From assembly GCF_002934625.1 (NCBI RefSeq), contig NZ_PTJD01000004.1, positions 248,001-312,000 on the forward strand: DNA of 64,000 nucleotides, read 5' to 3'. Each line of letters opens with the position of its first letter. The first letter of the stretch is position 1. A program made the position numbers and the translations under genes. Below are positions 2,921 to 8,886 of the stretch, piece by piece. This stretch comes from Kineococcus xinjiangensis. GTDB taxonomy: Bacteria > Actinomycetota > Actinomycetes > Actinomycetales > Kineococcaceae. The notes beneath the pieces are model-generated. The model ran no database searches, was not told the DNA's origin, and worked only from the letters and a program-made list of their open reading frames with translations.

Positions 2921-3189
2921 GACAACCCCTCCGCCGCTCTGGGCTTGGTCGCCGGGGTGGGTGGGCTCCGGCGTGTACACACGAACTGCCTCGGCAGAAG
3001 CCCGCGGGAGCTGAAGCGGCCGCTTCCGGCGGGTGCGGCCACCCGGGTGGTGTCGCCACCCGTGCGGGTGGTGGCGGCGCGGGGCGGGGCCGGGCGGGAG
3101 ACGCTGTCCGGGCGGGGCCGGCCGAGAATCCCTCGCGCGGGCGGCCGTCGTGCGCTGCCATGGACCGCCGCCCTCGAACAGGAGACCGA

Positions 3190-4266
3190 TTGCACGCCCC
3201 GATCACCGTGACCCCCGCCCGGCTGCCCGAGCTGCTGCTGGCCGTCGCCACCGTCCGCCCCGTGTTCCTGTGGGGGCAGCCGGGCATCGGCAAGTCGTCG
3301 CTGGTGGAGCAGTTCGCCGCGGCGCTGGGGATGGAGTGCGTCAGCCTGCTGGGGACGCAGCTCGCGCCGGAGGACCTCATCGGGGTGCCGACCATCCAGG
3401 ACGGCCTGAGCTGCTTCTGCCCACCGGCGGTGGTCGCCCGCCCGGAGCCGTACGTGCTGTTCCTCGACGAGCTCAACGCCTCCAGCCACGAGGTCCAGAA
3501 GTCGTTCTACTCCCTCATCCTCGAGGGGCGCCTGGGCGAGTACCGGCTGCCCGCCGGGTCGGTCGTGGTCGGCGCGGGCAACCGGGCGCAGGACTCGGCG
3601 ATCGTGCGCCCGATGAGCTCGGCGCTGGTGAACCGCATGGTGCACCTGCACCTGGTGGCCAGCCCGCGGGACTGGCTGCAGTGGGCGGCGGGGGCCGGCA
3701 TCCACCCGTGGGTGGTGGACTACGTCCGCGCCCGCCCGGACCACCTGGTCAGCCCGGCGCCGAAGACGGAGGAGCCGTTCTCCACGCCGCGCAGCTGGCA
3801 CGTGCTCAGCGACGTGCTGACCTCGCTGGGACCCGACGTGAGCGAGGACGACGTGCGCACGGTCGCGCTGGGGTGCGTCTCGCCCGTGCACGCGCGGCAG
3901 TTCACGGCCTCGGTGGCGCTGCTGCGCCACGCCTACGACCTGGACGCCATCCTCAAGGGCAACCTGCGCTGGCCCGCCGACCCGGCGCAGCGCGACGTCC
4001 TGTACTTCCTCGCGCAGTCGCTGCGCGCGCGGCTGGGCAAGGAGCTGCCCCGGCAGCGGCGCGGCGGCAGCGCCGAGTCGCAGGCGCTGGCGCACCGGGC
4101 GAAGGGCCTGCTCACGGAGCTGGCGGAGATCTCCCTGGAGGTCGCGCAGCTGGTGGTCGCGGGCGGCGGGGAGGACGGCGACGGCGGCGACGGGCAGGGG
4201 CTGCCGGCGTGGTTCCTCAGCGAGGTGGTGCGGGACCTGCCGCGGCTGGCGGCGGCGCGCGCGTGA
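3190..4266 (+). CDS. MoxR-type AAA+ ATPase
   Basis: This 358-residue AAA+ protein resembles MoxR chaperone-like ATPases, which usually activate or load metal centres onto a partner carrying a VWA domain. Walker A GQPGIGKS is at residues 29-36, Walker B VLFLDE ends at D93-E94, and GAGNRAQD resembles the sensor-1 strand. I place the start at TTG 3190, which has AGGAG five bases upstream; an in-frame ATG at 3160 has no clear ribosome site. Its stop overlaps the GTG of the next gene (GTGA), so the two are very probably translated together. Confidence 0.87.
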   Translation: MHAPITVTPARLPELLLAVATVRPVFLWGQPGIGKSSLVEQFAAALGMECVSLLGTQLAPEDLIGVPTIQDGLSCFCPPAVVARPEPYVLFLDELNASSHEVQKSFYSLILEGRLGEYRLPAGSVVVGAGNRAQDSAIVRPMSSALVNRMVHLHLVASPRDWLQWAAGAGIHPWVVDYVRARPDHLVSPAPKTEEPFSTPRSWHVLSDVLTSLGPDVSEDDVRTVALGCVSPVHARQFTASVALLRHAYDLDAILKGNLRWPADPAQRDVLYFLAQSLRARLGKELPRQRRGGSAESQALAHRAKGLLTELAEISLEVAQLVVAGGGEDGDGGDGQGLPAWFLSEVVRDLPRLAAARA

Positions 4267-6092
4267 GCCGCGGGCGGCAGGGGCAGCGCCTCGACCCGGT
4301 GCTGGAGGCCCGCCGGCAGGGGCTGGCGGCGGTGGCGCACCACCCGCTGTTCGCGCCCCTGCTGGAGCACGCCGGTGTGGTGGCGGGGGACGACCGGCCG
4401 TGGGGGCCGGAGGGCATGGTCGTGGTGGACTCCGCGGGCACGCTGCGCTACAACCCGCGCCTGCGGGCGGATCCGCAGCAGTGGCAGTGGGCGTTCGCGC
4501 ACGGGCTGCTGCACCTCGGGTTCGAGCACTTCCGCGACGACCGTCGCGGCGCGGGCGGCTGGTCGCCGGCGTGGCGGGCGGCGGCCTGCGCGGGCGCCGA
4601 CCAGTTCCTCACCCACCTGAAGGTGGGCCGGCGTCCGTCGTGGGCGCTGCTGGACAGCGAGCTGGGCGACGAGGAGAAGCTGTTCCTGCACTACGCGGAC
4701 CTGCTCGCGGCGGGGCGGATGCCGCGGGGCCGGCGGGGCACCGCGGACGGGTTCGCCGACTTCGTCGACGCCGCCGGGGGTGACCGCCCGCCGCAGCGCT
4801 GGGGGGTGCCGCTGCAGCGCTCGTGGGGCGACCTGCTGGCGGACGGGCTCGCCGCCGCGGTGGACGCCGCCGTCGCGGTGGCCGGGCGGGAGATCAGCGA
4901 CCTCTCGGGCACGCGGGGGACGAAGACGCGCTGGGCGCGCGCCCTGGAGTGGTTCGTCTCCTCGTACCCGCTGCTGGGCGCGCTGGCGTCGGGTTTCGAG
5001 CTGGTGGAGGACGCCGCCGTCTGCACCGCCCAGTCGATCTCGGTGGCGGCGGTGAGCCCGGCCGCGGCGCAGATCTACGTGAACCCCCGGGCGGGGCTGG
5101 GGGTGGAGGAGTGCCGCTTCGTCATCGCCCACGAGCTGCTGCACGCGGGGCTGCGGCACGACACGCGCCGCGGGGGGCGGCACCCGGAGCTGTGGAACTA
5201 CGCCTGCGACTACGCCGTCAACGGGTGGCTGGTGGAGATGGGTGTCGGCGCGATGCCCGAGGGCTGCCTCTACGACCCGGCGCTGAAGGGGATGAGCAGC
5301 GAGGAGGTCTACGACCGGATGGCGCGGGACACCCGCCGCATCCGCAAGCTGGCCACCCTGCGGGGCACCGGCCTCGGCGACGTGCTCGGCGAGCGGGTGG
5401 GGCACGCCGCGGAGGCGGAGGCGGGCGTGGACCTCGACGAGTTCTACCGCCGGGCGATCGCGCAGGGGCTGGAGCACCACCGCGGCGCCGGGCGCGGCCT
5501 GCTGCCGGCGGGGCTGGAGCAGGAGATCCGGGCGCTGGGGCAGCCGCCGGTGCCGTGGGACGTGGAGCTGGCCCGCTGGTTCGACGAGCACTTCCCCGCC
5601 GTGGAGGCGCGGCGCTCCTACGCGCGGGCCTCGCGGCGGCAGGCGGCCACCCCGGACATCCCGCGGCCGAGCTGGGTGGTGCCGCGGGAGCTGGTGGCGC
5701 GGCGGACGTTCGCGGTGGTGCTGGACACGTCGGGGTCGATGCCCGCTCAGCTGCTCGGCAAGGCGCTGGGGGCGATCGCCTCCTACGCGGTGAGCCACGA
5801 CGTGCCGGCGGTGCGGGTGGTGTTCTGCGACGCGGTGGCCTACGACGCGGGGTTCCTGGAGGTGACGGAGATCGCGCGGCGGGTCCGGGTGCGCGGGCGC
5901 GGCGGGACGGTGCTGCAGCCGGGGGTGGACCTGGTGGAGTCGGCCCGGGACTTCCCCGAGGACGGGCCGGTCCTCGTCATCACCGACGGCGAGTGCGACG
6001 TGGTGCGCATCCGGCGGGAGCACGCGTTCCTGGTGCCGGTGGGAGCGCGGCTGCCGTTCTCCCCGCGCGGTCCGGTGTTCCGGTTCGCATGA
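4263..6092 (+). CDS. DUF2201-type metallopeptidase/VWA protein, partner of MoxR ATPase
   Basis: The 609-residue protein matches the layout of the putative metallopeptidase plus VWA-like family (DUF2201). HELLH at residues 290-294 with H300 and the following WNYACDYAVN form a zinc-peptidase site. A C-terminal VWA-like domain starts with a MIDAS DTSGS at D488, then GGT and ITDGECD. The N-terminal 130 residues look like a second, degenerate copy of the peptidase region: RYNPR then AHGLLHLGFEH (H80, H84, H89) mirrors YVNPR then AHELLHAGLRH, but the catalytic Glu is Gly. The start GTG overlaps the ATPase stop, and its own stop overlaps the next ATG. The natural substrate is unknown. Confidence 0.87.
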   Translation: MSRGRQGQRLDPVLEARRQGLAAVAHHPLFAPLLEHAGVVAGDDRPWGPEGMVVVDSAGTLRYNPRLRADPQQWQWAFAHGLLHLGFEHFRDDRRGAGGWSPAWRAAACAGADQFLTHLKVGRRPSWALLDSELGDEEKLFLHYADLLAAGRMPRGRRGTADGFADFVDAAGGDRPPQRWGVPLQRSWGDLLADGLAAAVDAAVAVAGREISDLSGTRGTKTRWARALEWFVSSYPLLGALASGFELVEDAAVCTAQSISVAAVSPAAAQIYVNPRAGLGVEECRFVIAHELLHAGLRHDTRRGGRHPELWNYACDYAVNGWLVEMGVGAMPEGCLYDPALKGMSSEEVYDRMARDTRRIRKLATLRGTGLGDVLGERVGHAAEAEAGVDLDEFYRRAIAQGLEHHRGAGRGLLPAGLEQEIRALGQPPVPWDVELARWFDEHFPAVEARRSYARASRRQAATPDIPRPSWVVPRELVARRTFAVVLDTSGSMPAQLLGKALGAIASYAVSHDVPAVRVVFCDAVAYDAGFLEVTEIARRVRVRGRGGTVLQPGVDLVESARDFPEDGPVLVITDGECDVVRIRREHAFLVPVGARLPFSPRGPVFRFA

Positions 6093-7813: not shown

Positions 7814-8716
7814 TCACCCCAGGTCGGAGACCGCGAAGGTGTCGCACCGCTCCGGGTCGCCGGTCCGGTAGCCGATGCTGAACCAGAGCCGGCGCTGCTC
7901 GGAGGTGCCGTGGGTGAAGGAGCCCGGGTCGGCGCTGCCGTCGCCGAGGTTGTTCTGGATGAAGTCGTCACCGATGCGGCCCGCGGTGTCCAGGGCGCGC
8001 ACGACATCCTCCTCGGTGATCTCGCTGATGAGCGGTGCCCCCGAGTCGTCGGGAACCGTGGTCGCGTGGTGGGCCCACGCCCCGGCGTAGCAGTCGGCCT
8101 GCAGCTCCAGCCGCACGCTCCCGCTCTCGGGTCCGGCCTCCCCCGGCCGCACCGCCGCGGTCGTCCCGAGCAGGTGCTGGACGTGGTGGGCGTACTCGTG
8201 GGCGAGGATGTAGGCGTTGACGAAGGTCCCGCCCTGCGCGCCGAACCGGGTGCGGAGGTCGCCGAAGAACGACAGGTCGATGTAGACGAGCTCGTCGGCG
8301 GGGCAGTAGAACGGCCCGGTGCCCGAAGACGCTGCACCGCAGCCTGTCTGGGTGCCTTCCGCGAAGAAGACCGTGTCGGTGGGGACGTAGCGCCCGCCGA
8401 GCTGGCCCTGCCAGAAGTCCTGGACCGACTCGATGTTCGCGACGACGGCGCACTCCTCGCTCCGGTTGGCGTCGGCGCCGGTGCGGCAGGAGGCGCTCAG
8501 GTCCTCCCCGCTGGCGATCTGCCCCGGCCCGAGGTCCAGGCCGCTCGAACCCAGCGGCGGCACCGCCCCGCCGCCACCGAGGACCTGCAGCAGCACGAGC
8601 ACGAGCACGCCGACGAGGCCGAGACCCCCTCCGCCGATCGCCACGGCCCGGCCGCCACCACCACGGCGGTCCCGCACGTTGCCGACGTCCAGGCTCGCGT
8701 CGTCCCGGTACCTCAT
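7814..8716 (-). CDS. YpfJ/KPN_02809-type neutral zinc metallopeptidase
   Basis: The 300-residue protein has a short cytosolic N-terminus rich in Arg and Gly, one membrane helix near residues 24-48, and an extracytoplasmic domain with AHEYAHHVQ (H174, E175, H178). This HExxH context is typical of the neutral zinc metallopeptidase family related to YpfJ. Four Cys in the outer domain may form disulfides. The ATG at 8716 has GAGGGG nearby; a further in-frame start 48 nt upstream is less likely. Its protein substrate is unknown. Confidence 0.87.
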   Translation of the reverse strand: MRYRDDASLDVGNVRDRRGGGGRAVAIGGGGLGLVGVLVLVLLQVLGGGGAVPPLGSSGLDLGPGQIASGEDLSASCRTGADANRSEECAVVANIESVQDFWQGQLGGRYVPTDTVFFAEGTQTGCGAASSGTGPFYCPADELVYIDLSFFGDLRTRFGAQGGTFVNAYILAHEYAHHVQHLLGTTAAVRPGEAGPESGSVRLELQADCYAGAWAHHATTVPDDSGAPLISEITEEDVVRALDTAGRIGDDFIQNNLGDGSADPGSFTHGTSEQRRLWFSIGYRTGDPERCDTFAVSDLG

Positions 8717-8886
8717 GACCGTCCCCTCACCCGTGGGCGCCCGCCGTCCGCCGCCCTGCGGCACAGCTTGAGGGCATCACCGCGTCCTCGCCCGTCGTCG
8801 CCCGCCGCGCCCGACCGGCCGGAGCGCGACCGTCAGAGCAGCGGCAGCACCCGAGCGCCCAGGTCGTCGCGCGTGGGGGCGTGTCG

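Follow-up and report, generated by a model that had tools for sequence, protein, structure and literature searches.

A duplicated zincin-like domain without its catalytic glutamate in a putative ATPase-linked VWA metallopeptidase of Kineococcus xinjiangensis

The window analyzed here is a stretch of 64,000 nucleotides from Kineococcus xinjiangensis (assembly GCF_002934625.1, contig NZ_PTJD01000004.1, positions 248,001 to 312,000 of the forward strand), and coordinates refer to positions within it. It contains a gene for a protein of 609 residues, encoded directly behind an AAA ATPase gene, in which two zincin-like domains precede a domain resembling von Willebrand factor A (VWA). The second of the two copies has an intact-looking HExxH metallopeptidase motif, whereas the first retains the histidine pair and has lost the glutamate. 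We are highly confident that the two copies are homologous and that the loss of the glutamate is conserved among first copies. The GTG start of the gene was assigned because it overlaps the stop codon of the ATPase gene. The features of the gene pair are as follows.

3160..4266, + strand: partner AAA ATPase gene (MoxR-like, dynein-related AAA_5), from the translated open reading frame and Pfam
4263..6092, + strand: two-copy gene, 609 aa, with the GTG start in a GTGA overlap (4263-4266) with the ATPase stop
4296..4712, + strand: first copy, zincin-like domain without Glu, residues 12-150, from profile alignment to the second copy over residues 24-140 and a fold model
4500..4529, + strand: first-copy motif HGLLHLGFEH, with H80, G81 in place of Glu, H84, and H89
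4587..4589, + strand: C109, opposite D316 (invariant in second copies) by column counts; possible position of a third metal ligand
4734..4808, + strand: part of the linker between the copies, residues 158-182, with a predicted local distance difference test score (pLDDT) below 50 in the full-length model
4926..5654, + strand: second copy, DUF2201_N putative metallopeptidase, residues 222-464 (Pfam PF13203, 104.6 bits, cut-off 23.2)
5130..5159, + strand: second-copy motif HELLHAGLRH, with H290, E291, H294, and H299
5208..5210, + strand: D316 in an NxACD motif, likely the third metal ligand, from column counts
5712..6089, + strand: VWA-like domain, residues 484-609, with a DTSGS...T...D motif resembling a metal ion-dependent adhesion site (MIDAS), from Pfam, structure matches, and the motif read in the translation

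Homology of the two copies and conservation of their motifs

The original prediction proposed an internal duplication on the basis of short motifs, which were found where it had placed them. RYNPR and HGLLHLGFEH lie at residues 62-66 and 80-89 of the first copy, YVNPR and HELLHAGLRH at residues 272-276 and 290-299 of the second, and a W..AC....L...VG tail is shared by both (W104 and W311). The duplication itself was supported by profile-profile comparison and shuffling, and the homologous stretches, residues 24-140 and 232-349, proved longer than those first described. In a single-sequence Smith-Waterman comparison with BLOSUM62, residues 1-215 and 216-475 gave a score of 101, which was reached by none of 2000 shuffles (maximum 74). 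Using profiles with homologs, in which 38 and 41 of 42 rows were filled enough for the first and second copy, respectively, hhalign aligned residues 24-140 with 232-349 at a probability of 98.8% (E 1.1e-16, score 98.5). When the HxxxH stretch of the first copy was masked, the probability was 97.1% and the E value 6.4e-11. Among 200 column-shuffled control profiles, the top score was 22.6 and the top probability 7.2%, while the reversed second copy scored 13.7, and the first copy scored 12.0 against the VWA domain and 8.4 against residues 355-475.

Proteins scoring above 80 bits with both profiles were collected, giving 53 distinct proteins that are two-copy by definition; with seven more (L119, L122-L125, L128, and L129), the set comprised 60. 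Taken individually, 52 of the 53 outscored all 200 of their own shuffles. The first-copy profile, when run on whole genomes, also matched the second copy in the same frame, with E values of about 1e-9 to 2e-16. The Pfam family DUF2201_N was matched at an E value of no more than 1 by 25 of the 53 first copies, the best value being 2.2e-8.

Both histidines of HxxxH were present in all 60 first copies, glutamate occurred in none, and HExxH was found in all 60 second copies. Both the first motif and the loss of its glutamate are therefore conserved among homologs; a first motif that varied among homologs was one of the outcomes that the original prediction had named as refuting it. The glycine that it described at this position is real in the window protein and unique to it. 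Across the 60 first copies, the position is occupied by Cys in 31, Leu in 18, Ala in eight, and Gly (the window), Ser, and Asn in one each; the 53 account for Cys 27, Leu 18, Ala 6, Gly 1, and Ser 1, and the seven for Cys 4, Ala 2, and Asn 1. The rule in the family is thus the absence of Glu, usually in favor of Cys, Leu, or Ala. The proposed fusion of a pseudoenzyme half to an active half agrees with this pattern, insofar as a first copy without Glu is joined to an intact-looking second copy throughout the set. Having lost the general base in its sequence, the first copy is probably a pseudopeptidase.

First copies evolve faster than second copies. Only one Trp and the two His are invariant in the first copy, which has a mean identity of 35%, compared with 27 invariant columns and 62% identity in the second. 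Because such a fast-evolving domain keeps the two presumed ligand histidines and one tryptophan, we consider it likely, judging from these residues, that most first copies bind a metal. The earlier claim of metal binding thus gains indirect support from the His pair, and the variable third position leaves the claim incomplete. The third His of the motif is present in 49 of the 53 first copies. In the column equivalent to D316, the same 53 have Asp in 21, Cys in 28, and Asn in four, and Asp occupies this column in all 53 second copies and in each of the 12 single-copy proteins, out of 20 collected, that entered the tree alignment.

The glutamate was also found to be replaced in four of 20 single-copy frames of related proteins (L050, L051, L052, and L097); the motif of three reads HHVGHLLRDH or HHTGHLLRDH, and that of the fourth reads HTVLHCALGH. 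Loss of the Glu hence occurs without duplication too.

Fold models and domain assignments

The whole protein was modeled with AlphaFold2 at a pLDDT of 76 and a predicted template modeling score (pTM) of 0.41. In this model, both copies show the same order of elements, namely helix, helix, strand, two strands, motif helix, and further helices, with one extra short helix in the second copy. Since VWA domains took up the results when the full model was used for the fold search, the first copy was modeled alone, which gave a pLDDT of 88.2 and a pTM of 0.87. The best viral matches of this model include phage proteins named metallopeptidase or VWA-like. The top 11 had E values of 2.7e-5 to 8e-4 and template modeling (TM) scores that reached 0.60 when normalized to the query and 0.69 when normalized to a target of 153 residues, and the top viral match also heads the full-length search. 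The top rows from the PDB were zincins with weak scores (Z at most 5.9, graded middling): 3e11, which is a predicted zincin-like protease, selecase, ArdC, abylysin, Wss1, and a DNA-protein crosslink (DPC)-repair protease. In a sequence search of solved structures, the second copy matched selecase (MJ1213) with an E value of 0.68 as a single protein and 6.5e-6 with the full alignment, and no match was obtained for the first copy. The expectation of two similar folds is thus partly borne out: the first-copy model is confident, the elements follow the same order, and the nearest matches are metallopeptidases or zincins, while the likeness to PDB entries is weak. The predicted similarity of the two folds is based on how helices and strands follow one another and on the phage matches that the models share.

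The C-terminal assignment agrees with the full model, which matched VWA structures with a best Z of 12.6 over 130 residues (root mean square deviation 2.6). Residues 484-575 scored 26.1 bits against Pfam DUF2201 (PF09967), whose cut-off is 26.4, and an NCBIfam scan gave nothing over its cut-offs. The partner ATPase matched Pfam AAA_5 with 46.5 bits (cut-off 22), and its translation contains a Walker A motif, GQPGIGKSS, and a Walker B motif, VLFLDE.

In the PHROG collection, the protein matched phrog_1314 at 6.1e-45 under the label HNH endonuclease, and the matched regions of phage relatives carry labels such as homing endonuclease, DNA repair ATPase, or hydrolase. For a family of metallopeptidase/VWA proteins, such labels appear to be misannotations.

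Pairing with the ATPase, retention, and spread

An ATPase related to that of the window was located directly upstream of the two-copy gene in 53 of the 53 cases (the window being counted through L001) and in all seven further ones. Among the 53, the distance from the end of the ATPase to the first-copy match was 11 to 133 bases. Where frame and locus were whole, these ATPases scored 418-540 bits against that of the window; the exceptions were the split ATPase frames beside L025 and L038 and an ATPase of only 81 bits beside L102. Single-copy loci had a related ATPase upstream in 17 of 20 cases, at 36-131 bits, and further matches were seen for the single-copy locus L130 (195 bits) and beside a diverged Deinococcus relative, L121 (208 bits). 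The ATPase and the VWA-metallopeptidase gene thus look like a two-gene module. Gene families present in at least four of 34 loci, with flanks of up to about 5 kb and several shorter, were frames lying over the pair itself or mostly so. Two scattered families, found in seven and five loci at varying places and strands, appear to encode an ABC transporter and a short-chain dehydrogenase. Assignment to a defense system was rejected, since PADLOC had no family for the protein and gave weak matches for the ATPase (best E 0.0091), and no conserved third gene stood out among the families shared by four or more of the 34 loci.

Retention of the first copy was counted in 61 distinct frames whose second copy scored above 100 bits. 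A full first copy was present in 59, a fragment in one (L031), and none in one (L032); the open count gave 59 rather than 60 because rows with an identical second-copy core were merged. Of the 48 loci from the record search, 41 were carried forward (L043-L049 were omitted), and alignment A1 comprised 33 of the 48 plus the window. The loci outside the 53 were L031 (first-copy fragment, HCLLH), L032 (frame beginning within the second copy), L041 (partial second copy, no first), L043-L047 (VWA pieces), and L120 (broken frames, no first copy). L038 and L086, which belong to the 53, have frames that break within the VWA domain. When 13 genomes were searched again for the first copy, nine were positive, one (G437) had the second copy only, and three (G439, G440, and G442) had neither.

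A tree was built with 24 of the 53 proteins, each represented by its first and its second copy, together with 12 single-copy domains. All three groups were separated from the rest by a single branch, with support of 100/100 for the first copies, 96/79 for the second copies, and 96/89 for the single-copy domains. Because the first copies form one clade, the copy without Glu is best read as one old lineage rather than the result of repeated decay. The tree is unrooted and leaves open whether first and second copies are nearest relatives; it includes one long branch and three rows of odd composition.

By record title, the sources of two-copy proteins include Amycolatopsis, Saccharothrix, and further genera of actinobacteria, Clostridium, Acetivibrio, Lysinibacillus, Hyella, Iningainema, and an alphaproteobacterium, and one was also found in a metagenome-assembled genome (MAG) of Herpetosiphonaceae. 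The phyla were assigned from the organism names, and we take Hyella and Iningainema to be cyanobacteria and the first group to be actinobacteria. That relatives in several bacterial phyla share a first copy with two His and no Glu suggests a conserved helper domain in an ATPase-linked system that has received little study.

In a sample of 39 related genomes, the gene was found in that of the window and in none of the remaining 38. The larger genome samples include the genome on which each was centered, and the centers were picked for the presence of the gene in them or in their relatives, with some candidates unscored, so that the rates are biased. Two-copy genomes numbered seven of 396 in the sample of the window's phylum, four of 194 in the phylum of Iningainema, three of 348 in the phylum of Lysinibacillus macroides, three of 299 in the phylum of a Clostridium MAG (overlapping the Lysinibacillus sample), three of 201 in the phylum of the Herpetosiphonaceae MAG, two of 118 in the phylum of an Armatimonadetes MAG, and one of 190, the center itself, in the class of the alphaproteobacterium. 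Further genomes matched by single-copy or unrelated proteins only, with three in the Lysinibacillus sample, four in the Clostridium sample, eight in the Herpetosiphonaceae sample, and one each in the Armatimonadetes and alphaproteobacterial samples.

With the first copy of the window as tblastn query, matches were obtained in four of 72,556 plasmid records and in none of 50,697 phage records. This search misses divergent copies, since an unverified fecal phage scaffold (L125) holds a first copy by profile. The full protein matched 209 phage records, and coverage of at least 80% was reached in one, this L125 scaffold (91%).

Related loci were also seen on plasmids. In a Streptomyces plasmid (L120:1105-4029), the ATPase, second copy, and VWA domain are spread over different frames, and a first copy was not found; plasmid records H6 and H7 showed the same match pattern. 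The plasmid of Deinococcus sp. QL22 (L121:1430-3733) encodes a related VWA protein beside a MoxR ATPase. Its second-copy motif reads AELALHLLLGH, compared with AHExLH elsewhere, and no first copy was detected by profile, yet a degenerate GWIYVDPVRL...WWMYLAQ stretch is visible. Both copies are possibly inactive in this protein.

The window genome, searched with the protein, gave one locus only. A family search revealed a second, different DUF2201_N protein in the same genome (G000:C10:13976-15673; L063, L065), which carries the motif HEVGHPLRGHH and in which about 250 inserted residues interrupt the match to the domain. Within the window, a second zincin-like gene lies at 7814-8764 on the - strand, with the motif AHEYAHHVQH; it presumably resembles the YpfJ-type neutral zinc metallopeptidases.

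Possible role of the first copy

In the explanation we favor, two genes would encode an AAA ATPase-VWA system, with the two-copy protein as its second subunit. The ATPase may move or remodel a protein substrate, unfolding or feeding it, and the VWA domain may serve as a metal-dependent (MIDAS) adaptor that binds a peptide or partner. The second copy, an active-looking zinc peptidase, would cleave the substrate. The first copy, an old duplicate that has lost the Glu and kept the His pair, would be a metal-stabilized pseudopeptidase that docks the substrate, or restrains or positions the active copy. Taken as a whole, an ATPase-VWA-metallopeptidase with an anciently inactivated pseudopeptidase copy appears somewhat more probable than its opposite. 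This judgment blends the high confidence in homology and Glu loss, the likely binding of metal, and the function of the first copy in docking or control, as opposed to a purely structural one, for which we put the chances slightly short of even. A bolder form of the explanation would make this a type of AAA ATPase-driven peptidase that has not been described before. In it, the first copy, as a pseudopeptidase that holds a metal, arose once long ago, and was retained in several phyla, would receive the substrate for the active copy of its own chain or gate that copy; we consider this form rather unlikely.

Several observations weigh against this explanation. Residues 1-215 of the window protein matched no Pfam family, and its first copy is accordingly absent from the DUF2201_N matches. 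When the window genome was scanned with the first-copy profile, the second copy of the window protein was missing from the listed matches, although a local run gave 3e-13 for it. At a pTM of 0.41, the arrangement of the domains in the full model is unreliable, and a plain Foldseek search of the first-copy model against the PDB gave no E value below 0.34. A deletion removes the third His together with the loop around it in four of the 53 first copies (Saccharothrix/Lentzea), and the presumed third ligand varies among Asp, Cys, Asn, and Glu over the 60 first copies, while it is Asp in all second copies counted. No conserved third gene that would hint at a substrate was found in the 34 loci.

The alternatives draw on the same observations. 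Chance likeness of two unrelated histidine motifs, to which the missing Pfam match of the window's first copy is the only point to be credited, was rejected because the masked comparison stays significant; the signal also survives shuffling and is seen in an independent library (Pfam) and in the tree, which leaves this possibility negligible. A more serious alternative gives the first copy a purely structural part, as a spacer or a dimer interface, in which the His pair holds a structural metal or simply packs and keeps the domain folded, with no role in choosing the substrate or controlling the active copy. Its fast evolution, with only W, H, and H invariant, and the four proteins lacking the third His and its loop would fit such a domain. 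There is little direct evidence to oppose it: the full first copy is retained in 59 of 61 frames, yet retention fits structure or regulation alike. We consider this alternative rather unlikely, although much less so than any catalytic one.

The first copy might instead be catalytic in another manner, either as a YbeY-like hydrolase, in which HxxxH...H operates without the motif Glu, or through the Cys that replaces the Glu. The YbeY motif is HGxLHLxGxDH, with the spacing HxxxHxxxxxH, and HGLLHLGFEH resembles it; Cys occupies the Glu position in 27 of the 53. However, the spacing in the first copy is HxxxHxxxxH, with the third His one residue closer than in YbeY, the Gly is unique to the window protein, and Cys is absent in 26 of the 53. 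DUF2201_N is the sole family with a strong match. Pfam YbeY matched only four of the 53 first copies, with a best E of 0.052, and a YbeY-like RNase was consequently rejected as the family. A first copy that is catalytic in either of these ways is very unlikely.

The preferred explanation, that of an ATPase-linked metallopeptidase with a pseudopeptidase copy, has several partial precedents. Single-copy DUF2201_N/DUF2201 proteins (PF13203 and PF09967) share the second copy, mostly the VWA-like domain, and a related upstream ATPase; unlike the two-copy proteins, they have one HxxxH...H motif per frame (20 of 20) and no first copy. According to PMC7824862, group 2.2 jumbo phages encode a MoxR-vWA pair with an N-terminal metallopeptidase fused before the vWA domain, and the pair described here is similar in joining an AAA ATPase to a vWA protein with a metallopeptidase before the vWA domain. 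Among the 20 matches listed, 11 rows from Pseudomonas phages, not necessarily of group 2.2, begin at residue 216-217. PMC7159879 describes MoxR-vWA ternary conflict systems in which vWA acts as a metal-dependent adaptor and inactive peptidase domains occur in the effector position. The AAA ATPase and vWA core is common to those systems and ours, but no conserved third component (VMAP, iSTAND, FtsH, or beta-propeller) was present in the 34 loci, and the bpMoxR match of 22.7 bits lies below the cut-off of 27.

Tandem active and inactive metallopeptidases are described for M16A/M16C peptidases and carboxypeptidase D (CPD) in PMC11266112, which also reports that MPP alpha (M16B) is inactive and without the zinc-binding motif and that almost every residue of the active site is changed in the third domain of CPD. 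As in the M16 and CPD cases outlined there, active and inactive copies of one peptidase domain stand in one chain here; unlike them, the copies belong to another peptidase family, and the His pair is kept while the Glu is gone. Neither a duplicated first copy without Glu in the DUF2201_N family nor a characterized member of the DUF2201 metallopeptidase family was found in the searches made of open-access full text. The fusion of metallopeptidase and vWA with a MoxR ATPase and the tandem of active and inactive metallopeptidases are already known from these sources, and the duplicated copy without Glu is what is added here.

The two-copy protein offers a clean handle on the role of a pseudo-copy, because two His in one domain and one Glu in the other can be changed separately. 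It would add a bacterial, ATPase-linked case to the tandem active and inactive metallopeptidases.

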